A stretch of 64,000 bases of DNA from Sphingobium sp. HWE2-09 (GTDB lineage: Bacteria; Pseudomonadota; Alphaproteobacteria; Sphingomonadales; Sphingomonadaceae), in the NCBI RefSeq assembly GCF_035989265.1, contig NZ_JAYKZX010000003.1:806001-870000 (forward strand). Reading direction: 5' to 3'. Shown here one piece after another: positions 27,590-39,234 of the stretch. The first letter of the stretch is position 1, and every line of letters begins with the position of its first letter. The notes below the pieces were generated by a model, which made no database searches, was not told the DNA's origin, and saw nothing but the letters and a program-made list of their open reading frames with translations. Made by a program: the position numbers and the translations under genes.

Positions 27590-28558
27590 TCAGGGATTGA
27601 ACGCTATGACCGTCTGACTGAGTTCGCCGAACGGGCTGCTCCCTTCGGTTACGGCGGTCATGCGCACATGATCGCCAAAGCTCAGAAAGGGCGTGACGGG
27701 CTTACCATGTTCGATCATTTCGATCGCGCGCCGTTCGGACATGCAGGTCGATCCCACCGTCTGATAGTCCGCGTCGGACACGGTGCCGGAACCGATGATG
27801 GTTCCCGCGCACAGATGCCGGGTGCGCGCGGCATGCGCGATCAGTTCATGGAAGCCATAGCCCATATGCTCGCCCGAAGGATGGCCGAACCACGCGCCGT
27901 TGACCTCCACGCGCAGCGGTAGGCAGACCCGCCCGTCGCGCCAATCGTCGCCCAGTTCGTCCGGCGTGATCGCGATCGGCGCGGCGCTGCATGCCGGCTT
28001 GGCCTGAATCCAGCCAAAGCCCGTTTTCATTTCCTTGGGCGCGACGGCACGCAGCGACCAGTCGTTGAGGAGGATGATGAGGCGGATATGCGCCATGGCC
28101 TCGTCCGCCGAACAGCCCATCGGCACGTCGTCGGTGACGATGCCGAACTCGCCTTCGAAATCGATGAAGTCCGTTTCGGTGGGGAAGGCGACATCTTCGC
28201 GCGGGGCAAGGAAACGGTGGCTCATGCCCTGATACATCAGGGGGAGGTCGGTTTCGATGGGCGGGTGATTGAACGCCTTTTCCATCAGGGCGCCGTGGTT
28301 GGCGAAAGCCGATCCGTCGAGCCATTGCCAGGTGCGCGGCAGGGGGGCGAGAAGCGCAGCATGATCGACTGGCTCGCCGCCGCCTGCCTCCAGCGTGGTG
28401 GACAGGGAAACCGCATCATCCAGCAGCGCGTCCCAATCGGCGATCGCGTGCAACAGGTTGGGCCAGCGCGTACCCAGCGCCGCACAGCGCGTGCCATCGC
28501 GCGATATTAGTATCAATTCCCCGTCGGCCGTGCCGTTGGCGCGCGTTGCGAAACGCAT
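27590..28558 (-). CDS. Fumarylacetoacetate hydrolase-family protein
   Basis: A protein of 322 residues of the FAH superfamily, which cleaves or decarboxylates beta-diketo or enol acids formed after aromatic ring cleavage. Metal ligands are visible in FIDFEGEFGIVTDD (the ExE motif) with an upstream fold-specific NHPPIETDLPLMYQG. AKPACSAAPIAI and IIGSGTVSD are typical of the catalytic beta-roll. It is the last gene of the eight-gene minus-strand operon (36190 to 27590), 65 nt after the cupin gene, and ends 20 nt from the convergent beta-helix gene. In the proposed pathway it would act late, on the acyclic product. Confidence 0.85.
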   Translation of the reverse strand: MRFATRANGTADGELILISRDGTRCAALGTRWPNLLHAIADWDALLDDAVSLSTTLEAGGGEPVDHAALLAPLPRTWQWLDGSAFANHGALMEKAFNHPPIETDLPLMYQGMSHRFLAPREDVAFPTETDFIDFEGEFGIVTDDVPMGCSADEAMAHIRLIILLNDWSLRAVAPKEMKTGFGWIQAKPACSAAPIAITPDELGDDWRDGRVCLPLRVEVNGAWFGHPSGEHMGYGFHELIAHAARTRHLCAGTIIGSGTVSDADYQTVGSTCMSERRAIEMIEHGKPVTPFLSFGDHVRMTAVTEGSSPFGELSQTVIAFNP

Positions 28559-28623
28559 AGGTCCGTTTCCTTCCGATATTGTCTGTTGTCGGCGCGCGGG
28601 TTGCCCGCGCGCCGGACCAAGGC

Positions 28624-29193
28624 TCAGCGCTTGAGATTGTCGTCGAACGCGCCGTCGATCAGGATGAAGACGATCCGGCAGTTGCGGTCGGAGCGGTTCG
28701 ACCAGCCATGGTTGGTGCCGCGCTGGATGACGATATCGCCTGCACGGACGGTGGTTTCGCCTTCGTCCATGATCAGCACCAGTTCGCCCTCCACCACGAT
28801 GCCATAGTCGATCGTTTCGGTGCGGTGCATCAGCGCGTGGCGCGACCCTTCGCCATCATGGGCGGACGCGTCATGCGCGCCGACTTCGGCGAAATGGGCG
28901 CGGGCTTCCTCGGGCGACATGGTGCGGATGCCGTCGCCTTCGGGCGGGATGTCGAGCACACGGATGCGGGTGCCATTTTTGGGCGGGGCAAGGATGATGC
29001 CGGTTTCGGCCGGTTCGCCGGAGGCGGCGTCGAGCGGGGCGGGGGTGGCCTGCGTGTTCCAGACTTCGTGAAACATCGGCCCGATGTCGCCGCCGATGCG
29101 CTGGACGCGCTGGACCGGGCCGTCCTCCTGGATGATGGCGCGGCCTGAAGCGTCGTGCCCGGTGACGATGCGGCGAACGGATGCAAATTCCAT
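28624..29193 (-). CDS. Cupin-domain protein of the aromatic catabolic operon
   Basis: A protein of 189 residues. The start at 29193 is preceded by AGGA. The C-terminal half is a single cupin barrel: HRTETIDYGIVVEGELVLI (motif 1 with His and Glu), DEGETTVRAGDIVIQRGTNHGWSN (motif 2 with the third metal His). The N-terminal half (VRRIVTGHDASGRAIIQEDG) is shared with a widespread group of small cupins found beside ring-cleavage genes. The role could be an isomerase, decarboxylase or ring-cleaving dioxygenase step. It is not secreted. It follows the small membrane protein gene by 11 nt. Confidence 0.8.
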   Translation of the reverse strand: MEFASVRRIVTGHDASGRAIIQEDGPVQRVQRIGGDIGPMFHEVWNTQATPAPLDAASGEPAETGIILAPPKNGTRIRVLDIPPEGDGIRTMSPEEARAHFAEVGAHDASAHDGEGSRHALMHRTETIDYGIVVEGELVLIMDEGETTVRAGDIVIQRGTNHGWSNRSDRNCRIVFILIDGAFDDNLKR

Positions 29194-29204
29194 GAGCTTA
29201 TTTC

Positions 29205-29690
29205 CTAGATTAGGTACGCGCCGCCGACCATGCGTCGCAGCACGCGCCATGTGACCCATGCGCCAAGCGCGGCGCCGTAGATGATCTTGACGCCAAGGGC
29301 GATTGGCCAGTCCAGCGTGGCGACATTGCCGGACAGCCAGAGAAACGCGATGCCCGCCCCCAGCGTCAGGGCAGACAGGACCGACATGAAGGCGGCCCGC
29401 AACAGCCACTGGATCGTCACGGGATGACTGGCCGCACTGCCCAGCCGCCCGGCCAGTTGCGCGCGCCGTGCGATCATGCCCGGTACGATACAGGCCATAA
29501 GCGCGACAGCGGCGCTTTGCGGCAGGAAATCGATGGCATAACCCCATTCCCCCACCGCAACGCGCCCCGCCGTACCGAAGACGGCAAGGAAGAACAGCGC
29601 GCCGATCACCCCATTGATCACCGCGCTGACGATCGTCTCCCGCGCGATATAGGCGTCGATGCGGCCGCTCTGTTCTTCCGCAGTCCTCAC
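29205..29690 (-). CDS. Small integral membrane protein of unknown function
   Basis: A protein of 161 residues starting at GTG 29690, whose GTGA overlaps the stop of the upstream alpha/beta hydrolase gene. Four hydrophobic segments are visible (about residues 22-42, 52-73, 98-120, 128-150), with a basic C-terminal WRVLRRMVGGAYLI. No catalytic motif is recognised. Its position inside a compact catabolic operon suggests a role in substrate passage across the inner membrane or as a helper. I do not recognise the family. Confidence 0.7.
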   Translation of the reverse strand: MRTAEEQSGRIDAYIARETIVSAVINGVIGALFFLAVFGTAGRVAVGEWGYAIDFLPQSAAVALMACIVPGMIARRAQLAGRLGSAASHPVTIQWLLRAAFMSVLSALTLGAGIAFLWLSGNVATLDWPIALGVKIIYGAALGAWVTWRVLRRMVGGAYLI

Positions 29691-30844
29691 GCGGTCTTGC
29701 CGCCCAGCGTATCGGCGAACCAGTCGGCGATATAGTCGCGACCGTAGGACATATTGTCCGCGCCGACATGCTCGACCCCGCCTTCGCGTTCGGTGAACAG
29801 CTTGAGCGCGCGCCGCGGGCTGTTGACCAGCTGGTCGTAGCAGTCATGCGCGTAATCGACGCTGATCTGTCGGTCCTTCGCGCCATGGGTGACCAGGAAG
29901 GGCACCTTGATCCCGTCCATATGGCCGTTGAGGTTCATGCCCTCCGCCTTCGCCAGGAAGTCGTCCATGTCGCTCGCGCCGAAGGCCCACATGACATGCG
30001 CCCAATAATGGGGGACGGGGTTTTCGCCTTCGCGTTTCATGCGCTTCTGCTGGACCTCGGCCCAATTATGGTTCGCGCCCCAGACCGCGCCGGACGCGAA
30101 ACGGGGTTCGTAAGCGACGGCGCGCGGGGCGAAATGGCCGCCCAGCGAAATGCCGGTCATGCCGATCCGCTTGGGATCGACATCGTCCTGCTGTTCCAGC
30201 CAGTCGACCGCCTTGCTCGCCCAGTTTTCGCTATGCGGATCGACGGGCAAGTTCTGGAGGCGCAGCGCTTCGCCCGATCCGGGCTGATCGACGCAGAGCG
30301 TGGAAATACCACGCCGCGCGAGCGCTTCAGGCAGGCGCGACCAGTAGAGCAGTTCCTTGCAGCTATCGAGGCCGTTGCAATAGACCACGACCGGATGCGG
30401 GCCTTCCCCAGGCGCGCTCGTGAAGAGGGCGGGCATGGTGCCGGTGCTGAGCGGGATGTCAACGCGGCGACGGTTGATCTGGCCCAGCGCGGTCGAACGG
30501 TCGAACGTGTCGCGCGCCTTGGCATAGGTGGCCTGACGACCGGGATGGCCATGACCCTGCATCCGTTCGGCGTTGAACAGATAGAGCGATGCGCGCTCCA
30601 GCTTGTCGGAGGCGGAGAAAGCACGGCCCTGCGCCTCATCTTCTGCCGCAAGATCGATCAGCTTGTCGGCCATCGCGACCCATTGCGCCATGAACATGGG
30701 CGTGCCCGCATCCGCGCCGGATGCCGCCGCGTCCTTGATCGGCTGGCACATGTCGACGATTTCGCCGATGCGCCCGCCGCTCTCCATCGCGATCGCGACC
30801 GACAGATTCCAGATATAGTTGGGGAAATATTCGAACAAAGCCAT
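29687..30844 (-). CDS. Alpha/beta hydrolase, probable C-C bond or ester hydrolase (FrsA/DHPON-hydrolase-like)
   Basis: A cytoplasmic enzyme of 385 residues. A helical N-terminal segment (about 1-125) precedes the hydrolase core, as in 2,6-dihydroxypseudooxynicotine hydrolase and FrsA-type proteins. The core has VVYCNGLDSCKE (oxyanion region), CVDQPGSGEA, the nucleophile elbow GISLGG with Ser233, and a C-terminal acid/histidine set (VTHGAKDRQI, GGVEHVGAD). It starts 3 nt after the extradiol dioxygenase stop. In a meta-cleavage pathway it would hydrolyse the ring-fission product. The 125-residue cap distinguishes it from ordinary MhpC/BphD-type hydrolases. Confidence 0.82.
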   Translation of the reverse strand: MALFEYFPNYIWNLSVAIAMESGGRIGEIVDMCQPIKDAAASGADAGTPMFMAQWVAMADKLIDLAAEDEAQGRAFSASDKLERASLYLFNAERMQGHGHPGRQATYAKARDTFDRSTALGQINRRRVDIPLSTGTMPALFTSAPGEGPHPVVVYCNGLDSCKELLYWSRLPEALARRGISTLCVDQPGSGEALRLQNLPVDPHSENWASKAVDWLEQQDDVDPKRIGMTGISLGGHFAPRAVAYEPRFASGAVWGANHNWAEVQQKRMKREGENPVPHYWAHVMWAFGASDMDDFLAKAEGMNLNGHMDGIKVPFLVTHGAKDRQISVDYAHDCYDQLVNSPRRALKLFTEREGGVEHVGADNMSYGRDYIADWFADTLGGKTA

Positions 30845-30847
30845 CGA

Positions 30848-31750
30848 TCAGACCTCCACTGCCTGGAACAGACCCTTGTCGGGCGCGGCATGCGGCATGG
30901 TCTGGGGACCACCGACGCCGATGCCCCATTGGTCCATGATGCCGGGGCCGGGGGCATGGACTTTGGCTTCGTGCGTTTCGAAGTCCACATCCTCCAGTTC
31001 CGAACTATATTCGACCGCAAAGCCCGCAGGCGTGGTGAAATAGCTGAACGTGTTGTTGCCCGCGGTGTGGCGGCCCGGACCCCAGCGAATGTCGGTGCCC
31101 TTCAGCCGCAGCCGATTGACGCCGACCATCATGTCATCGACGGTCAGCATGTCATAGGCGACATGGTTGAGGCAGGGCGGTCCAGGCAGGAAGGCGATGC
31201 GATGATGCGCGGCGTTGCAGCGCAGGAAGCACATGAAGTCGCCCAGCCAGTCCGATACCTTGAAGCCCAGAACGTCGCAGAACCATTCCACCATCGCCTT
31301 ATGATCGGGCGAGTGGAGGACGATGTGGCTGATCTTCTGCGGTACGCCTTCCCAACGGGCGAGTTCACGGGCGGTGCGGCGGGCAACGTCGCTCGACACT
31401 TCGAAGGTCAGGCCGTCGGGCGAGAAGAAGCGGAAGCCATAGCCGCCGCCCAGCGAGTCCAGATCCTTGGGCGTGAAGATGATGCGGCAGCCCGAGGCGA
31501 CGACCTTGTCATGCAGGGCGTCGACATCGGCGCGGCTGTCGGCGGCCAGCGCGATCACGTCGATGCGCTGTTCCTCGGCCTGACGCAGGCGCACGACATG
31601 ATGCTCATGCCCGCCGTCGGCGGCGAAATAGACCATGCCGTCCTTTTCTCCCGCCTCGACCAGTTTCCACTGATCGGCGTAGAAGGCGCGCTCGGCTTCC
31701 AGATCGGGCAGGGCGTAACCCACATAACGAATTTCTGTAACGCGGCTCAT
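30848..31750 (-). CDS. Type I extradiol ring-cleavage dioxygenase (VOC superfamily)
   Basis: A protein of 300 residues with two VOC modules. The C-terminal module carries the iron facial triad His142 (KISHIVLHS), His196 (LNHVAYD) and Glu247 (AVEYSSE), together with the extradiol signature GPGRHTAGNNTFSYFTTPAGFAVEY split around residues 224-248. It should open a catechol-like ring next to the hydroxyl pair using O2 and Fe(II). It lies between the FAD monooxygenase (11 nt upstream) and the alpha/beta hydrolase, giving a classical hydroxylase, dioxygenase, hydrolase order. The aromatic substrate is unknown. Confidence 0.88.
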   Translation of the reverse strand: MSRVTEIRYVGYALPDLEAERAFYADQWKLVEAGEKDGMVYFAADGGHEHHVVRLRQAEEQRIDVIALAADSRADVDALHDKVVASGCRIIFTPKDLDSLGGGYGFRFFSPDGLTFEVSSDVARRTARELARWEGVPQKISHIVLHSPDHKAMVEWFCDVLGFKVSDWLGDFMCFLRCNAAHHRIAFLPGPPCLNHVAYDMLTVDDMMVGVNRLRLKGTDIRWGPGRHTAGNNTFSYFTTPAGFAVEYSSELEDVDFETHEAKVHAPGPGIMDQWGIGVGGPQTMPHAAPDKGLFQAVEV

Positions 31751-31761
31751 AGCGGTTTCCT

Positions 31762-32877
31762 TCAGATCGGCTGGGAGACCATCGCGAACATGTCCGCGGT
31801 GGCTTTGTGATTGTCGACGGGCGCGCCCTTACCAAGCTGGCCCATGCAGATTTCGAGCGATTTTTCCACGATGTAGCGGCACCGGTCGTGACGGCGTTCG
31901 TGATAGGCGGTCAGCGCGCTGTCCAGATCGTCATGGCTGGTCAGTTCCTCCGCCAGCACGATGCTGTCCTCGATCGCCATGCCCGCGCCCTGACCCAGAT
32001 GGGGGGTGGTGGCGTGGACGGCATCGCCCAGCAGGACGACGCGGCCCTTGTGCCAGGGGCCGTCCAGCATGAAGGCTTCGAGCGGGCGATAGACGACGCC
32101 GTCATCGTCGGTGATATGCTCGCCCAGCGCCTGGATCGCGGGCGAACAATGGGCGATCTTGGCGCGCATCGCAGCGGCCAGTCCTTCGCGCGGGTAGCGG
32201 GGATTGCCCGGTTCGGCGGTGGTGACGAACATATACATCAGGCTTTTCGAGATCGGGACCAGGCCGACGCCGGTGGGACCATTATAGGCCTGAAGCGAGT
32301 CCATGCCTTCGGTCAGGGGCAGGTTGTAGCGCCAGACCGCTTGCCCCGTATAGTGGGGCGAGGGCGCATCGGGGAACAGCAGCGCGCGGGTCTGCGAATA
32401 GACGCCGTCCGCGCCGATGACCAAGTCGAAGCTGCCCTGCGCGCCGTCCGAAAACTGCACCGTCACTTGGTCGCCCTGATCGTCGATATTAGTCGCGGTG
32501 ACGCCCAGCCGCACTTTGGCGCCCGATGCGATCGTGCGATCGCCCAATACTTTGTGCAGGGCGGGGCGACCGACGCCCAGATTGGCGGGATAGCCATCGA
32601 CCAGACGGGGGGAGGGGACGCGCGCGACCTTCGTACCGTCGGGTGCGAATATTTCGACCGTGTCGAAGCCTGCGCCGGCCGCGATATATTCGTCCAGCAG
32701 GTCCAGATGATCCATGGCGCGCAGCACGTTGGACTGCTGGATGATACCCACGCCATAGACCGACCAGTCGGGATTACGCTCGATGACGGTGACGTCGAAC
32801 CCCTTTCGGCGCAGCGCGATGGCGGAGGTGAGGCCACCTATGCCTCCGCCGATGATGAGGATGTTGAACTTGTCCAT
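31762..32877 (-). CDS. FAD-dependent aromatic monooxygenase (PHBH/UbiH-like)
   Basis: A protein of 371 residues with the Rossmann GGGIGGLTSAIAL motif (10-22), the DG motif (LVIGADGVYSQTR near 150-162) and the second FAD motif GDAVHATTPHLGQGAGMAIED. This architecture is that of single-component group A flavoprotein hydroxylases that add a hydroxyl to a phenolic ring. It is followed directly by the extradiol dioxygenase gene, so its product is probably the catechol-type substrate of that enzyme. No signal peptide is present; it is cytoplasmic. The substrate cannot be told from sequence. Confidence 0.88.
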   Translation of the reverse strand: MDKFNILIIGGGIGGLTSAIALRRKGFDVTVIERNPDWSVYGVGIIQQSNVLRAMDHLDLLDEYIAAGAGFDTVEIFAPDGTKVARVPSPRLVDGYPANLGVGRPALHKVLGDRTIASGAKVRLGVTATNIDDQGDQVTVQFSDGAQGSFDLVIGADGVYSQTRALLFPDAPSPHYTGQAVWRYNLPLTEGMDSLQAYNGPTGVGLVPISKSLMYMFVTTAEPGNPRYPREGLAAAMRAKIAHCSPAIQALGEHITDDDGVVYRPLEAFMLDGPWHKGRVVLLGDAVHATTPHLGQGAGMAIEDSIVLAEELTSHDDLDSALTAYHERRHDRCRYIVEKSLEICMGQLGKGAPVDNHKATADMFAMVSQPI

Positions 32878-32921
32878 GGTCGGTCTAGTGCCTCGTGAGA
32901 AAGGAGCGAGAGGAAGCGGGG

Positions 32922-33902
32922 TCAGAAGCGGTCGAGATCGTTGGCGATCGCGGCCGGTCCGGTGAAATTGTTGCGGATGGCGGCGATGTAGGTGCGGGTC
33001 CGTGCGGCATCGTCCGTTCCACCGGCGATATGGGTGACGGCCACCGCCTTCACCCTGGCGCGAGCGGCCAGCGCGCCGACCTCTTGCGGTGTCAGGTGAT
33101 GGGTGGTCAGATGCTGCAGCATCGTCGCCTTGACGGCGGCGGGCATGTCAGGGCTGGTGCGCGCAACGCGATCCAGCGTGGCGTCTATGTCGATCATTTC
33201 GCTGACCAGCAGGTCCGCGCCCGACGCCAGCTTTTCGACCGCCGCGCTGGGTCCGGTGTCGCCGGTATAGGCGATGGATCGGCCCGGCAGGTCGAATTGC
33301 AGGGCGTAGGATTTATAGTTGCGATCCTCCACGCTGCCGGGCGCGAAGTCGTAGTGCGTGTTCTGCGCGACCTTCACCGTCATGTCGTCAACGCGGATGC
33401 TCTCGCCGTCCCGCAATTCGATCACCGACACGGTATTTTCAGGCGGCGTCCAGGATTTGCCGGGGATGCCATAGCCCGCCTTGGCCGATGGCTGGAGGCT
33501 GGCGACGATGCCAGCCACCAGTTCGCGCGTGCCGGGCGGACCATAAATGGTCAGTATGTCGCGCGCTTCGGTCTGGTTGCGCAGCCCCAATATCGCCGCC
33601 AGCCCGCCAATATGATCGACATGCAGGTGGCTGAGGAAAATGGCGCGGACGGACGGCAGGGGCAGGTCCGCCCGCGCCATCTGTTCCACCGTGCCATCGC
33701 CGGTGTCGACCAGATAGGTCTTGCCATCCTGCAGGATGGCGTTGGCCGGTTGCGAGCGATGTCCGTCCGGCACCGGACCGCCCATCGTCCCCAAAGTGAC
33801 GAAGGCGGCGCGCGGCGGACCGGCCGCCGCCGCTGCCGTCGCCAGCAGGGCGATCATGCCGGACAGCGCCGTGCCGGTGATCCGGGCGGACATCCGCTTC
33901 AC
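32922..33902 (-). CDS. MBL-fold metallo-hydrolase, exported
   Basis: A protein of 326 residues with the metal motif SHLHVDHIGG (His92, His94, Asp96, His97), a later YTGDTGPS and a C-terminal HHLTPQEVG segment, as in RNase Z/arylsulfatase-like MBL proteins. A signal peptide (MSARITGTALSGMIALL...AAA) indicates periplasmic location. The GTG at 33902 overlaps the receptor stop (GTGA); ATG at 33893 is equally possible. Between the receptor and the ring-hydroxylating genes it may hydrolyse an ester, lactone or sulfate on the incoming substrate. That role is inferred. Confidence 0.8.
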   Translation of the reverse strand: MKRMSARITGTALSGMIALLATAAAAAGPPRAAFVTLGTMGGPVPDGHRSQPANAILQDGKTYLVDTGDGTVEQMARADLPLPSVRAIFLSHLHVDHIGGLAAILGLRNQTEARDILTIYGPPGTRELVAGIVASLQPSAKAGYGIPGKSWTPPENTVSVIELRDGESIRVDDMTVKVAQNTHYDFAPGSVEDRNYKSYALQFDLPGRSIAYTGDTGPSAAVEKLASGADLLVSEMIDIDATLDRVARTSPDMPAAVKATMLQHLTTHHLTPQEVGALAARARVKAVAVTHIAGGTDDAARTRTYIAAIRNNFTGPAAIANDLDRF

Positions 33903-36190
33903 AGGTTGAAGCCCAGGCGCACGCCATAGGTGCGCGGCGGACGCAGCGTGCCGACGGGGAAGTCGAGGATCGGACGCGTGCCGGCGCGGGCCAGCACTTC
34001 CTTATCCTCGATATTGTTGACGAAGGCGGTGACGCTCCATTTGTCCTGCGGTCCTTCCAGCGTCAGGAACGCGTCGGACATCATGAAGCTGCCCTGCTTC
34101 TCCTCTTCGCGGAAGTTGGAGTTCATGTAGCGGCTGGATTCGATGTTCGAGCGTGCGCCCGCCACCAGCACCATGTCGCCGCCGACATGGAAGCTGTGCT
34201 GATAGCCCATGTTGATCGCCCATTTGGGCGAATTGACGGTGGGCTTGCCCGAACAGTCGATGTCGTAGAAGCGTGCGCCGTTGATGCCGGGATTGGCGAG
34301 CCGCGATCCGGTGGTCGTGCAGCCGGTAGTGACAGGCGCGCCGGTGGGCGAGAAGTTGGCGGTTTGCAGGCTCTTATATTTGCCGTTCAGATACTGGACG
34401 TTGAGGTTGAACAGATCGTCGCGGGTGGGCGCGAAGCGGGCCTCGACTTCTGAGCCGAAGATGCGCGACTTGCCCGCGTTGGTGGTGAGCGACCCTTGCG
34501 CGAAGATGCCATTGCCGGTCTGGACCCCGCCTACGAACGTGACCTGCTGGTCCTTATAGTCCCAGTAGAAGGCTTCGATATTGAGCTGCAGCTTGTTACC
34601 GAAGAAGCGGTTCTTGGTCCCGATCGTATAGGCGGTCAGGCTTTCCGGGCGGAAGCTGTTGTTGGGCGGTGCGGCGACGTAGAAGCCGCCCGATTTGAAG
34701 CCGGTGGCGACATTGGCATAAACCAGGGATGCGGGCCCGGCGTCGAATTCGACTCCCGCCTTCCAGGTGAATTTGGTGAAGGTCAGGTCGCCGGTGACCG
34801 GCGCGCCCAGCGGCGGATCGACCGGGCCGGGCAGGCCGCCCGCGACCGACGCGGTCAGCTGCGACTTGTCTTCCCGCGTGTAGCGCCCGCCACCGATCAG
34901 ACGCAGATTGTCCCTGAGGTCGAAGGTCAACTGACCGAAGGCCGCGAGGCTCTGCGTCTTGAGGCGGGGGGTGAAGCGGGTGGTGGAAATCCGGCCCTGG
35001 CGGAAATAGTTGAGCGTATCCTGCTGCTCGTTGAAGAAGAAGCCGCCCAGGACATAGCGTAACCGCTGGTCGGCGGCTGAGGTCAGCCGCGCTTCCAGCG
35101 ACATCTGTTCGGCATTATCCTGTATCTCGCCACGGAAGCCGGGCAGATAGGTGCGGAAATTCGCTTCCGACTTGCGCCAGGCTGGGATGACGGACAGCGT
35201 GGCAAAGCCCATGTCGCCATCGACCTGCGCGCTCAGCCCGTAGAAATGATTGTCGAGATAGCCGTCGCTGCCCGCATTTTCGATGCAGCCGCTGGCGATG
35301 AAGCCGCCCGCGCAGAAGGGTGGGGCGAATAGGGTGGAGGCATAGCCGTTAATCGCGGCGATCGCGCGCGGATCGGATATGCTGACCCGATCGTCGAGCG
35401 AGGGTACGGCGAACGCCTTGCTGGGTAGCAGGACCGCGCCGCTGCCCTTGCCGCCCTGATGATAATAGTCGCCTACAATGTTGATCGACCAGATGTCCGA
35501 TGGCTTGAGCAGGAAGGAGGCGCGCACCGCTTCGCCCTTGTCATCGTCATAACCATCGGAAATATAGCCGTCGCGATCGACCACCTGGCCCGCGACGCGC
35601 AGCGCGGCGATCTCCCCGAACGGGACGTTGACGGCTAGGAAGCCCTTCTTGCTGTCGTAATTGCCATATTCGGCCAGACCTTCGACGCCGAATTTGCCGA
35701 GGACAGGCTTCTTGGGCAGGACGTTGATCGCGCCGCCGGTCGCGTTGCGGCCGTAGAGCGTGCCCTGCGGCCCCTTGACCACTTCGACCCGTTCCAGATC
35801 GTAGAAGACACCGGCAGGCGCGGTCGGGCGGCCGACATAGACGCCGTTGAAATTGAAGGCGATCGCGTTTTCGGAGAAGCTGTTCTGCGAATTGGTGCCG
35901 ACGCCGCGCAGGAAGAAGCTGGTCGTGCCGCCGGTAGGCTGCACGACGAGCGCGGGCACGAGTTTACCAAGGTTCGACGTTTCGGTGATGCCGGAGCGGG
36001 TCAGGTCGTCTCCAGTCACGGCGGTGATGGCGATGGCTGCCCGTTGCAGGCTTTCCTCGCGCCTTTGAGCGGTCACGACGATTTCTTCCAGTCCACCGTC
36101 CGACGCCTGCGTATCTGTATTTTGCGCCATGGCGACCTGCGGCATGATCCCGCCGACCAGCATCGTGGCGCACCAAAAAATGCTCTTCAT
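33899..36190 (-). CDS. TonB-dependent receptor heading the aromatic catabolic operon
   Basis: An outer-membrane receptor of 763 residues. The start at 36190 follows GGGAGGATAT. The signal peptide ends QVAMAQ near residue 23, the TonB-box-like EEIVVTAQRREES follows, then a plug with SFFLRGVGTNSQNS and GPQGTLYGRNATGGAINVLPK, and a barrel ending YGVRLGFNL. The plug is of the type common in sphingomonad receptors for small hydrophobic compounds. It is first in the operon that continues with the MBL hydrolase and ring-cleavage genes, so it probably imports the aromatic growth substrate. It is divergent from the NodD-like regulator. Confidence 0.88.
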   Translation of the reverse strand: MKSIFWCATMLVGGIMPQVAMAQNTDTQASDGGLEEIVVTAQRREESLQRAAIAITAVTGDDLTRSGITETSNLGKLVPALVVQPTGGTTSFFLRGVGTNSQNSFSENAIAFNFNGVYVGRPTAPAGVFYDLERVEVVKGPQGTLYGRNATGGAINVLPKKPVLGKFGVEGLAEYGNYDSKKGFLAVNVPFGEIAALRVAGQVVDRDGYISDGYDDDKGEAVRASFLLKPSDIWSINIVGDYYHQGGKGSGAVLLPSKAFAVPSLDDRVSISDPRAIAAINGYASTLFAPPFCAGGFIASGCIENAGSDGYLDNHFYGLSAQVDGDMGFATLSVIPAWRKSEANFRTYLPGFRGEIQDNAEQMSLEARLTSAADQRLRYVLGGFFFNEQQDTLNYFRQGRISTTRFTPRLKTQSLAAFGQLTFDLRDNLRLIGGGRYTREDKSQLTASVAGGLPGPVDPPLGAPVTGDLTFTKFTWKAGVEFDAGPASLVYANVATGFKSGGFYVAAPPNNSFRPESLTAYTIGTKNRFFGNKLQLNIEAFYWDYKDQQVTFVGGVQTGNGIFAQGSLTTNAGKSRIFGSEVEARFAPTRDDLFNLNVQYLNGKYKSLQTANFSPTGAPVTTGCTTTGSRLANPGINGARFYDIDCSGKPTVNSPKWAINMGYQHSFHVGGDMVLVAGARSNIESSRYMNSNFREEEKQGSFMMSDAFLTLEGPQDKWSVTAFVNNIEDKEVLARAGTRPILDFPVGTLRPPRTYGVRLGFNL

Positions 36191-36298
36191 ATATCCTCCC
36201 CATTACGCCCCGATCTTCGCGGGGATGGCCAAAGGGGTGACATGTTTTGAAAAAGCAGTAAAATGGATGATATGTGTTGAAATTAATCAATAGGATTC
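36191..36298. promoter_or_regulatory. Divergent control region for the NodD-like regulator and the catabolic operon
   Basis: This 108-nt gap carries two direct copies of ATGTKTTGAAA (36242 and 36272) spaced exactly 30 nt, about three helical turns. It also has an interrupted repeat CCCCG-ATCTT-CGCGGGG with ATC-N8-GAT (36213-36226), close to the ATC-N9-GAT half of NodD sites. Direct repeats on one helix face fit a LysR-type tetramer site. No clean -35/-10 pair is evident. Confidence 0.45.
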
Positions 36299-37231
36299 AT
36301 GATCGTGAGGCTGGACCGGTTTGACCTCAATCTTCTGGTGGCGTTCGACATATTGGTGGAAGAGCGCAACGTCACCCGTGCCGCCAAGCGGCTGAACCTG
36401 ACGCAATCGGCGATGAGCGCGGCTTTGCGCCGATTGCGCGAGGCCTTTGCCGACGAGATCCTGGTGCAGCATGGCAAGAAGATGATCCCGACCGCAGCAG
36501 CCCTTTCGCTGGCACCGGAAATCTCCACGGTGGTCGCGGAGTTGCGCGGGATCATCGCGCGCGGCCTGACCTTCGATCCGGCGCACAGCCAGCGTATCTT
36601 CCGGATCGTGGCGTCGGACTATGTCACGACGGTGCTGATCGGCCCGATGCTGGCGAAATTGCAGCGATCGGCCCCCGACGTGCGGATCGAGATCACGCTG
36701 CCGCGCAACGACATCCACGCCCGGCTGGAAGATGGCGAACTGGACTTCATCGTGGCGCCCGAGCGTTTTCTGGAAGGGCCGCATCCGCGCGAATTATTGT
36801 TCGAGGAACGCCATGTCGTAGTGGGGTGGTCCGGCAATCCGATCATGCAGCAACCGTTGACAGAGGATCTTTATTATAGCGCCGGCCATGTTGCGGTCAG
36901 CGTGTCGCGCGATGGCACCTTCATTGAAAATCATCTGCGCGAACAGGGCGACCGTCGGCGGATCGAGGTGATCTGCGCGGCGTTCAGCCAGGCGGCGTGG
37001 ATGCTGCCGGGCACGACCAGGCTGGCGCTGATGCACGAGCGGCTGGCGAAAGTGATGGCGTCGATATTGCCGTTGCGCGTCGTGGACCCACCGATCGATC
37101 TGCCGGTGATGCGCGAAATGCTGCAATATCATCATGCGCGTTCGGGCGACACGGGCCTGACATGGATGCGTCATCAATTGCGGGATGCGGTGGCGGAGCG
37201 GACGACGCATGGGGGCATGGCCGAGGGCTGA
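36299..37231 (+). CDS. LysR-family transcriptional regulator, NodD-like
   Basis: A regulator of 310 residues. The start ATG 36299 has TAGGA a few nt upstream. RFDLNLLVAFDILVEERNV (8-25) and the winged helix SQ-type LNLTQSAMSAALRRLRE (33-48) match the NodD/NahR/LinR branch. The sensor domain keeps features of NodD proteins: GELDFIVAPE, an AGHVAVS stretch, RRIEVICAAFSQAAWMLPGT and LPLRVVDPPIDLPVMREMLQYH. That branch commonly responds to flavonoids or related aromatic compounds. It is divergent from the eight-gene catabolic operon and is its probable activator. The inducer is inferred, not shown. Confidence 0.9.
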   Translation: MIVRLDRFDLNLLVAFDILVEERNVTRAAKRLNLTQSAMSAALRRLREAFADEILVQHGKKMIPTAAALSLAPEISTVVAELRGIIARGLTFDPAHSQRIFRIVASDYVTTVLIGPMLAKLQRSAPDVRIEITLPRNDIHARLEDGELDFIVAPERFLEGPHPRELLFEERHVVVGWSGNPIMQQPLTEDLYYSAGHVAVSVSRDGTFIENHLREQGDRRRIEVICAAFSQAAWMLPGTTRLALMHERLAKVMASILPLRVVDPPIDLPVMREMLQYHHARSGDTGLTWMRHQLRDAVAERTTHGGMAEG

Positions 37232-37242
37232 TCCGGCCAGGA

Positions 37243-38566
37243 TCACCGCACGCACGGCACCGTCACTATGGCTCGTACGCCGCCAAGGTCGCTCGTCGCC
37301 AATTGCAGCGTGCCGCCATATAGGGTGATGAGGTCGCGCACGATCGCCAGGCCAAAACCATAGCCCGTGGCGCTCTCATCCAGGCGAATGCCCGATGTCA
37401 TCGCCAATTCACGCTGGTCCGGGGGAATGCCGGGGCCGTCATCATCGATGGCGATCATGGCATGGCCTTCGTCCAGCCTGGTCGTCACGCTGACGGTGGT
37501 GCGGGCGTGGCGCGCCGCATTGTCGAGCAGATTGCCGATGATTTCCGTCAGGTCATGAACATCCACCGCCACGGCCAGATCGTCGGGTATGTCGGCGCTG
37601 ATCGAGACATGGCGATGGAGCGCGCCGATCGTCGCCACTAGATCGGCGATCACCGGGGCGGCCAGCGTGGTGGCGCGCCGACCCACGGCCGCCGTCCGGG
37701 CGCGGGCCAGATGATGGCGAATGACGCCGTCGATCCGCCGGACCTGCGCCGATGCGACCGGATCGTCACCGACGGTCAGCGCTAATGTCGCCACCGGCGT
37801 CTTGAGCGCATGGGCAAGGTTGGCGGCGGACGCGCGGGCGGAAGCCAGCGCCGCCGCGCTGTCGGTCGCCAGCGCATTGAGTTCAACCGCCAGCGGCTTG
37901 AGTTCGGCGGGCTGATCCTCATCCACCGCCTGTCGGGCGCCGCGACGGATGCCCGCGACCTGATCCCGCAGCGCCAGGATCGGTCGCAGCCCGAGCCGCA
38001 ACTGCACGAAAGCGGCGATGGCGAAAATGCCCGCCAGCGTCAGCATCACCGTCAGCAAGGGCACGAGCGCAGAGCGGATCGGGCGCGCGATGACGCCCGG
38101 GGGCGCGGCGGCGGACAGGAGCACCGCCCCTGCGGATGTGTCGATGGTGACGGCGCGGGCGTGGACCGGGCCTTCGCGACCTTCTCCCTCGACCGGCATG
38201 GGGGACGGTAGAGCTGGTTTGTCCATGCCCAAAGGTCCGCCCGGCGGGGGGCGGCAGCGGCGTAGGTGCCAATGCGGGAAAGTCCGCCGATCCGGCGTGC
38301 CCGCGTGGCCCGGTGATGCGCCAGCGCCAGCCCGGGCCACCGCTCAGCACGGCGAGCCTTTGTTCGATGCGCGCCCGGTCGATCGACCCGTCATCGCGCA
38401 CCGCGCTCGCCATCACGGCGAGCTGCGCGTCGAGCCGCTGGTCCAGACCCTGGGTGACGAAGCGTTCCAGGATGCCCAGCATCGCCCAGCCTGCAATGGT
38501 GAGCGCAGCCAGCGTCGCGATGGCGGCCATCACGATCATGCGGGTGCGCAGCGACCAGTTTTTCAT
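37243..38566 (-). pseudogene. PhoQ-like sensor histidine kinase, frameshifted
   Basis: From ATG 38566 (overlapping the regulator stop as ATGA) the frame encodes a membrane anchor (RTRMIVMAAIATLAALTIAGW), a periplasmic sensor and a proline stretch. The frame breaks at the run of six G at 38247-38252. In the next frame the protein continues with GGPLGMDKPALPSPM, a second membrane segment, HAMP, the H-box NLAHALKTPVATL, the N-box EIIGNLLDNAARHA and G-boxes DDDGPGI and GYGFGLAIV, ending at 37243. Removing one G from the run rejoins it into 440 residues; the total of 1324 nt is one more than a multiple of three. The H-box HALKTP is of PhoQ type. A sequencing error is likely, otherwise the kinase is inactivated. 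Confidence 0.82.
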
Positions 38567-39234
38567 GCGCTTTGCTGCCCGCACGTGACGCGATAGCCGC
38601 GCCCGCGCACCGTTTCGATCAGGTCCGCGCCGATCTTGCGACGCAGGCGGCCGATGATCACCTCCAGGCTGTTGGAATCGACGTCGGCATCGCCTTCATA
38701 GACATGCTCCAGCAGATCGAGCCGTTCCACCACCACCTCCCGCCGCAGGATGAGGTGCGACAGCACGCGCCATTCGAACGCGGTGAGGCGAAGCGGCATC
38801 CCGTCCAGTTCGAACTGCCCGGTCTGGCTTTCGAACGATAGCGGGCCGCAGGCGATGCGCGACTGCGCATGACCCGCCGCCCGCCGCACGAGCGCGCGCA
38901 GCCGCATCATCAATTCCTCGACACGAAAAGGTTTGGTCAGATAGTCGTCGGCGCCCGCCTTGAACGCGGATACCTTGTCGGCCCAGGCTTCCCGCGCGGT
39001 CAGGACAAGTACGGGCAGGTCGCGGCCAGCCTCCCGCCATGCCGCCAGCACCCTGGCGCCGTCCTGCCCCGGCAGGCCGAGGTCGAGCACGGCTGCGTCG
39101 TAATTTTCGGTATCGCCTAGATGCTGCGCGTCGATGCCGTCGCGCACCATATCCACGGCGCAGTTTTCCGACCGCAGCGCGCGGGCAATCGCTTCGCCCA
39201 GATCGGGATCGTCTTCCACCAGCAGGATGCGCAT
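38563..39234 (-). CDS. OmpR/PhoP-family response regulator
   Basis: A response regulator of 223 residues. The receiver has the acidic pocket VEDDPD (7-12), the phosphorylation site Asp51 in VLDLGLPG, the T/S switch LVLTAREAW and the lysine in LTKPFRVEEL. The C-terminal winged helix ends with VIIGRLRRKIGADLIETVRGRGYRV. Its stop overlaps the histidine kinase start by 4 nt. It is divergent from the proline-rich exported protein at 39342 and may regulate it, an arrangement seen for PhoP-type systems with a small periplasmic accessory protein. Confidence 0.93.
   Translation of the reverse strand: MRILLVEDDPDLGEAIARALRSENCAVDMVRDGIDAQHLGDTENYDAAVLDLGLPGQDGARVLAAWREAGRDLPVLVLTAREAWADKVSAFKAGADDYLTKPFRVEELMMRLRALVRRAAGHAQSRIACGPLSFESQTGQFELDGMPLRLTAFEWRVLSHLILRREVVVERLDLLEHVYEGDADVDSNSLEVIIGRLRRKIGADLIETVRGRGYRVTCGQQSA

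Follow-up and report, generated by a model that had tools for sequence, protein, structure and literature searches.

We analysed a 64,000-nucleotide stretch of the genome of Sphingobium sp. HWE2-09 (contig NZ_JAYKZX010000003.1, positions 806,001 to 870,000; hereafter the window), which contains an operon of eight minus-strand genes lying divergent from a plus-strand gene for a LysR-type regulator. A preliminary description had set out this arrangement and proposed a sphingomonad analogue of the fde cluster acting on a flavonoid or similar plant polyphenol; the open reading frames of the window and their translations bore out the gene set, with every gene at the position assigned to it. The gene nearest the regulator encodes a TonB-dependent receptor (33899..36190, 763 residues; Pfam Plug and beta-barrel), followed by an exported enzyme of the metallo-beta-lactamase (MBL) fold (32922..33902, 326 residues) that matches PDB entry 8gyg. 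Next come a group A flavin adenine dinucleotide (FAD) monooxygenase (31762..32877, 371 residues), which scores above the cut-off of NCBIfam model PRK06847 and carries GGGIGG and GDAVH motifs, and a type I extradiol dioxygenase of the VOC family (30848..31750, 300 residues), in which His142, His196 and Glu247 stand as had been described and whose best PDB match (E 3e-149) is 3b59, a solved structure that bears only a generic name; the names of its homologues, among the 120 of 2919 listed, gave no information. The alpha/beta hydrolase (29687..30844, 385 residues, with Ser233 within GISLG) resembles 2,6-dihydroxypseudooxynicotine hydrolase (DHPONH), a carbon-carbon (C-C) hydrolase, its PDB matches being 2jbw and 8qd7. 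The operon ends with a small membrane protein (29205..29690, 161 residues, GTG start), for which a Pfam search matched no family; a Cupin_2 protein (28624..29193, 189 residues), which probably begins with the ATG at 29193 rather than at the start of the full 420-residue reading frame 28624-29886; and a hydrolase of the fumarylacetoacetate hydrolase (FAH) family (27590..28558, 322 residues; Pfam FAA_hydrolase and FAA_hydro_N_2; PDB 3lzk, E 2e-73), likely a C-C hydrolase of an acylpyruvate-type product. The divergent gene (36299..37231, plus strand, 310 residues) encodes a NodD/FdeR-like LysR protein, and a conserved 48-bp element lies 5' of it (36254..36301, plus strand), with AT-N10-GAT at 36282 and TTGA-N6-TCAA at 36277.

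Regulator and promoter

The regulator had been described as NodD-like, and the comparisons agreed. Among 60 records spread over a set of 1056, its identity was 36-39% to annotated NodD proteins and 28% to NahR. In a tree of 57 LysR sequences it fell into a 52-member clade (100/99) together with NodD, the regulators of fde-type loci and those of other sphingomonad clusters, with NahR, SyrM and LeuO outside; it was thus not placed away from flavonoid-type regulators, FdeR itself not being among the sequences. The title of Wassem 2017, as cited by PMC10799723, applies the term NodD-like to FdeR. Within the clade the window regulator was not clearly closer to NodD than to the LysR proteins of the fde-type loci and, since the three NodD sequences form a clade of their own, it is best regarded as NodD-like, not as NodD. 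Several long branches meet in this tree, as they do in that of the FAD monooxygenases.

The 48-bp motif was derived from a set of 42 sphingomonad promoters, the window's included, in which it is strong (five score below zero); it scores 44.9 at its place upstream of the regulator gene, and the next best place in the whole window scores -4.0. The promoter region 36191-36301 contains AT-N10-GAT; ATC-N9-GAT was not found there. Nineteen of 53 promoters contain ATC-N9-GAT, where shuffling gives 1.7 on average, an excess inflated by relatedness. In an R. hidalgonense record the 48-bp motif has its second-best place immediately upstream of nodD1. Of its eight best places in a stretch of S. meliloti pSymA, none stands immediately 5' of nodA or nodD3, and we therefore make no nod-box assignment.

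Enzymes compared with fde-type loci and a solved arylsulfatase

Comparison with the fde cluster was made through plasmid loci of Azospirillum B510, Burkholderia anthina and Diaphorobacter HDW4B and through the protein P0121, named 'naringenin degradation protein FdeE' by its source, and not with the FdeC, FdeE and FdeR sequences of Herbaspirillum seropedicae. We infer that the three loci are fde-type, a reading backed by the 67% identity between P0121 and the corresponding B. anthina protein. Their genes run hydrolase (followed in B. anthina by an EthD gene), VOC, Rieske, FAD, an order that would fit fdeB-C-D-E if fdeB, as we assume, encodes the hydrolase; Hsero_1005 and Hsero_1007 are FdeC and FdeE (PMC10755750), and FdeD is a Rieske protein that forms an FdeED complex (PMC8552027).

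The window hydrolase is 55-57% identical to the hydrolases of the three loci, the FAH-family protein 56% and 46% identical to those of B. anthina and Azospirillum B510, and the cupin 48% identical to that of B. anthina. The FAD monooxygenase is 39-42% identical to the three corresponding enzymes and 40% to P0121, a family-level likeness, as it stands outside the four-member clade of P0121 and the Rieske-linked enzymes in a tree whose bootstrap had not settled. Kinship with proteins of fde-type loci is seen in these four proteins (39-57%), but the dioxygenase stands at about 30% and a Rieske component is missing.

The MBL-fold protein shares 140 of 296 residues (47%, 298 bits) with 8gyg, entered as 'Arysulfatase', the next match reaching 59.5 bits. 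It carries HLHVDH from residue 92, in agreement with the HxHxDH motif, and a signal peptide judged by eye. The earlier assignment as a periplasmic MBL hydrolase stands as regards fold and apparent export, but the enzyme is better described as arylsulfatase-like. Its 47% identity to a solved arylsulfatase suggests that the substrates could be sulfated.

Conservation among sphingomonads and association with C-glycoside deglycosidases

Three close relatives (L001, L002 and L007) retain the trio formed by the FAD monooxygenase, the VOC dioxygenase and the hydrolase with 89-98% identity, and their operon proteins as a whole are 80-98% identical to those of the window, with 71-78% for the membrane protein. 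The divergent LysR gene and the order TonB receptor, MBL, FAD, VOC, hydrolase, membrane protein, cupin, FAH are the same in Sphingobium limneticum (L002) and in a Sphingobium metagenome-assembled genome (L007), where the membrane-protein and FAH matches are each split in two; L001, also a metagenome-assembled genome, keeps the order without a membrane-protein match. FAD and VOC genes are adjacent in 12 sphingomonad plasmid records, with the best hydrolase place coming directly after them in 10 and elsewhere in the record in NZ_CP128493 and NZ_CP019603. A wider set comprised 62 loci (L001-L007, L009, L014 and L021-L073), with two loci from some genomes and at least two apparent duplicate pairs (L003/L021 and L004/L045, with identical rows). 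The hydrolase was called in 61 of these neighbourhoods, accompanied by the VOC gene in 54, the FAD gene in 49, both in 47, an FAH gene in 46, a cupin or cyclase in 47, a TonB receptor in 42, a LysR gene in 40, an MBL gene in 21 and a labelled relative of the membrane protein in 9.

Some of these loci hold further genes. At L009, pobA and the gene for a subunit of a class III extradiol dioxygenase are separated from the operon by a few kb, an arrangement to be expected if a 4-hydroxyphenyl B-ring goes on to protocatechuate. Amidohydro_2 and PrpF proteins, each family present in 8 of the 62 neighbourhoods (L056, L061 and related loci), look suited to later steps of ring cleavage. Plasmid pNL2 of N. 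aromaticivorans (L012) bears a distantly related operon (hydrolase 45% and FAD 47% identical), which has an annotated sulfatase-like gene between its TonB receptor and an epimerase.

In Novosphingobium P6W the operon adjoins C-glycoside deglycosidase genes, namely one with the Pfam family CGDB (PF19906, C-glycoside deglycosidase beta subunit) and one for a partner with a TIM barrel, for which 8qvc and DgpC-type chains are the best PDB matches. We therefore asked, across a sample of 397 genomes from the family, whether the hydrolase and CGDB occur together. With an E-value limit of 1e-100 the hydrolase was present in 64 genomes, 51 with the close form (at least 65% identity, our own genome included) and 13 with looser matches; CGDB was present in 23. 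Every one of the 23 carried the hydrolase (p 1.2e-20) and 22 its close form (p 4.5e-21), the remaining genome (G420) having it at 47% identity; at genus level 13 of the 14 CGDB genera lay within the 22 of 96 genera having the close form (p 1.6e-9), these Fisher tests taking genomes or genera as independent. Two controls gave no such association. Catechol 2,3-dioxygenase, in 17 of the 397 genomes, fell once within the close-form set (p 0.9) and five times among all 64 hydrolase genomes (p 0.12). GH127, in 48 genomes, fell nine times in the close-form set against 6.2 expected (p 0.14), and three of the 23 CGDB genomes contained it against 2.8 expected. The association of CGDB with the hydrolase is independent support for a plant polyphenol as substrate.

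CGDB and hydrolase starts lie within 25 kb of each other in 11 of the 23 genomes; 8 more have both on one contig at a greater distance, and 4 have them on separate contigs. Sixty regions around hydrolase matches, a part of all matches, were fetched; 14 of the 22 close-form CGDB genomes have the complete trio at a fetched locus, 5 lack that FAD gene but have the other two, and 3 have the hydrolase without a window-type VOC. Five loci with CGDB within 25 kb (L023, L029, L030, L047 and L048) contain dioxygenase and hydrolase with no FAD monooxygenase match in the fetched stretch, and L030 has a GMC oxidoreductase at the locus; in such loci the substrate may already have the diol, or another hydroxylase may serve.

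Elsewhere in our own genome, a second, partly related cluster (contig C1, about 576-598 kb; L087/L088) holds two more NodD-like LysR genes (36% and 38% identical to the window LysR), an FAD monooxygenase (44%) and an FAH protein (64% identical to that of the window), a cyclase that shares 83% identity with its P6W counterpart, two TonB receptors and two VOC proteins. At C3:1335130-1336107 lies a remote paralogue of the FAD monooxygenase (31%), whose reading frame contains a TGA codon. Within the window the operon adjoins a plant cell-wall sugar locus (4540-27570) with GH127, GH95, alpha-galactosidase-like and four GH43 genes, a LacI regulator, an MFS transporter, a TonB receptor, a Sde182-like protein and beta-helix proteins. 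Directly beyond the LysR gene (37243-39234) are a histidine kinase and a response regulator, the latter judged by eye from its translation.

Substrate, proposed route and known systems

The LysR tree, the identities to fde-type loci, the kinds of enzymes shared with the isoflavone cluster ifc, the CGDB association with its negative controls and the arylsulfatase match lead us to read the operon, with a probability of about 0.7, as a sphingomonad variant of an A-ring-cleaving flavonoid catabolic operon of the fde/ifc kind. The proposed analogue of fde was therefore upheld by regulator, enzyme identities and CGDB link, but not as a plain copy of that cluster. We infer its substrate, its induction and each of its reactions from the sequences. 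A flavonoid-type polyphenol, perhaps sulfated, would enter the periplasm through the TonB receptor and be relieved of sulfate by the exported MBL enzyme, and the NodD-like LysR would sense the aglycone and switch on the divergent operon. The FAD monooxygenase would hydroxylate the A-ring next to the 7-hydroxyl (at C8 in known systems), the extradiol dioxygenase would open the resulting ortho-diol, the alpha/beta hydrolase would cut a C-C bond in the diketone-like product, and the cupin and the FAH-family hydrolase would carry the fragments towards central metabolism.

Part of this chemistry has precedents. FdeE is reported to act on flavanones, flavones, isoflavones and flavonols (PMC11303751). 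In the ifc cluster, for which mutant and enzyme evidence covers the hydroxylase, the dioxygenase (with partial conversion) and the cupins, IfcA is an 8-hydroxylase of isoflavones, IfcB yields X2, a candidate ring-cleavage product, while leaving some substrate unconverted, and the cupins IfcD act on the pyranone X3, the gene for the conversion of X2 into X3 not having been identified; homologues of IfcA are mentioned there in Sphingopyxis (PMC11069340).

Several observations weigh against an operon of the fde/ifc kind. The window dioxygenase is 28% and 30% identical to two dioxygenases of the fde-type loci and 33%, over 123 residues, to the third, and because identity is only about 30% we place it in another lineage, whose nearest solved member is 3b59; the carbon-skeleton hydrolases are what is shared with fde-type loci. 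No Rieske-labelled gene was found in the 61 hydrolase loci, and none is among the operon proteins. Plain fde membership was rejected on these two grounds, the dioxygenase and the absent FdeD. The fork uniting NodD and sphingomonad LysRs apart from those of the fde-type loci is weak (83/59), and the tree holds few regulators from outside the group, being sampled mostly beside such clusters, so that it indicates kinship with NodD rather than a proven ligand. In ifc, disruption of the DHPONH-like alpha/beta hydrolase left daidzein degradation unaffected (PMC11069340). Our own genome (G000) gave no PF19906 match at E up to 1e-5; CGDB was found in none of six genomes of other families with an fde-type dioxygenase, a search that gave no match anywhere; and the FAD gene was present at the nearby hydrolase locus in only 5 of the 11 genomes with CGDB within 25 kb.

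The same chemistry might serve another plant or fungal polyphenol that occurs as a C-glycoside or sulfate, such as a xanthone, chromone, dihydrochalcone, anthraquinone or stilbene. The C-glycosylated compounds on which C-deglycosidases have been tested include not only flavonoids but also a xanthonoid and an anthraquinone (PMC8563793), and a dioxygenase unlike that of the fde-type loci would be expected for a different ring system; however, a regulator of the NodD/FdeR type, together with a hydrolase, an FAH protein and a cupin that are fde-like, speaks for flavonoids in the first place, and we regard such a substrate as unlikely. Decidedly less probable is a meta-cleavage route that has no relation to flavonoids and serves simple phenols or fragments of lignin: a group A hydroxylase, an extradiol dioxygenase and a hydrolase are general meta-pathway parts, but the dioxygenase scores far under the cut-offs of catechol, homoprotocatechuate and biphenyl-diol dioxygenase models, and the hydrolase follows CGDB strongly and catechol 2,3-dioxygenase without significance. 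A nicotine- or steroid-type pathway, suggested by DHPONH as the best PDB match of the hydrolase, is very improbable, as that match is weak (65 bits, nearly equalled at 59 bits by the 'Yellowish-green 1-like protein' 8qd7, and set against 55-57% identity to fde-type loci) and the dioxygenase reaches 60.8 of the 450 bits required for HsaC. These simple-phenol, nicotine and steroid pathways were set aside in favour of the fde/ifc kind.

A further reading can be proposed tentatively, at somewhat less than even odds: in sphingomonads the operon may be the aglycone half of an aerobic route mineralising C-glycosyl flavonoids, in the window strain perhaps sulfated ones, in which a C-deglycosidase or an arylsulfatase frees the aglycone and a NodD-type-regulated operon opens the A-ring with a dioxygenase of a lineage other than that of the fde-type loci. 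Such a route is not described in the literature found, and no paper apparently describing the operon emerged from the titles and abstract openings of the literature on flavonoid, isoflavone and C-glycoside degradation, weak evidence given that subscription papers lay largely outside. Bacterial flavonoid A-ring cleavage rests there on two characterised clusters, fde and ifc; a conserved sphingomonad version would join NodD-type sensing, C-glycoside removal and ring cleavage, would give 3b59 a candidate role and would allow what the hydrolase does to be tested in tractable strains.

Compared with known systems, the operon shares with the fde cluster of H. seropedicae SmR1 a NodD-like LysR (FdeR), an FAD monooxygenase and an extradiol dioxygenase, and with the fde-type loci the same kind of hydrolase, FAH and, in B. 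anthina, cupin; unlike fde, it lacks the Rieske protein FdeD and has in addition a TonB receptor and an exported arylsulfatase-like MBL enzyme. The latter resembles AtsA-type arylsulfatases (SulfAtlas S4) in its HxHxDH motif and apparent export signal, its 47% identity being to 8gyg and not to AtsA (P28607). With the ifc cluster of Variovorax V35, compared by description rather than by the Ifc sequences, it has in common an FAD hydroxylase, a glyoxalase-type dioxygenase, a DHPONH-like hydrolase and a cupin, of which ifc has two and the window operon one (PMC11069340). The C-glycoside deglycosidases (Dgp/Car/Pur; Pfam CGDB) differ in that they remove the sugar, whereas the window operon would handle the aglycone.

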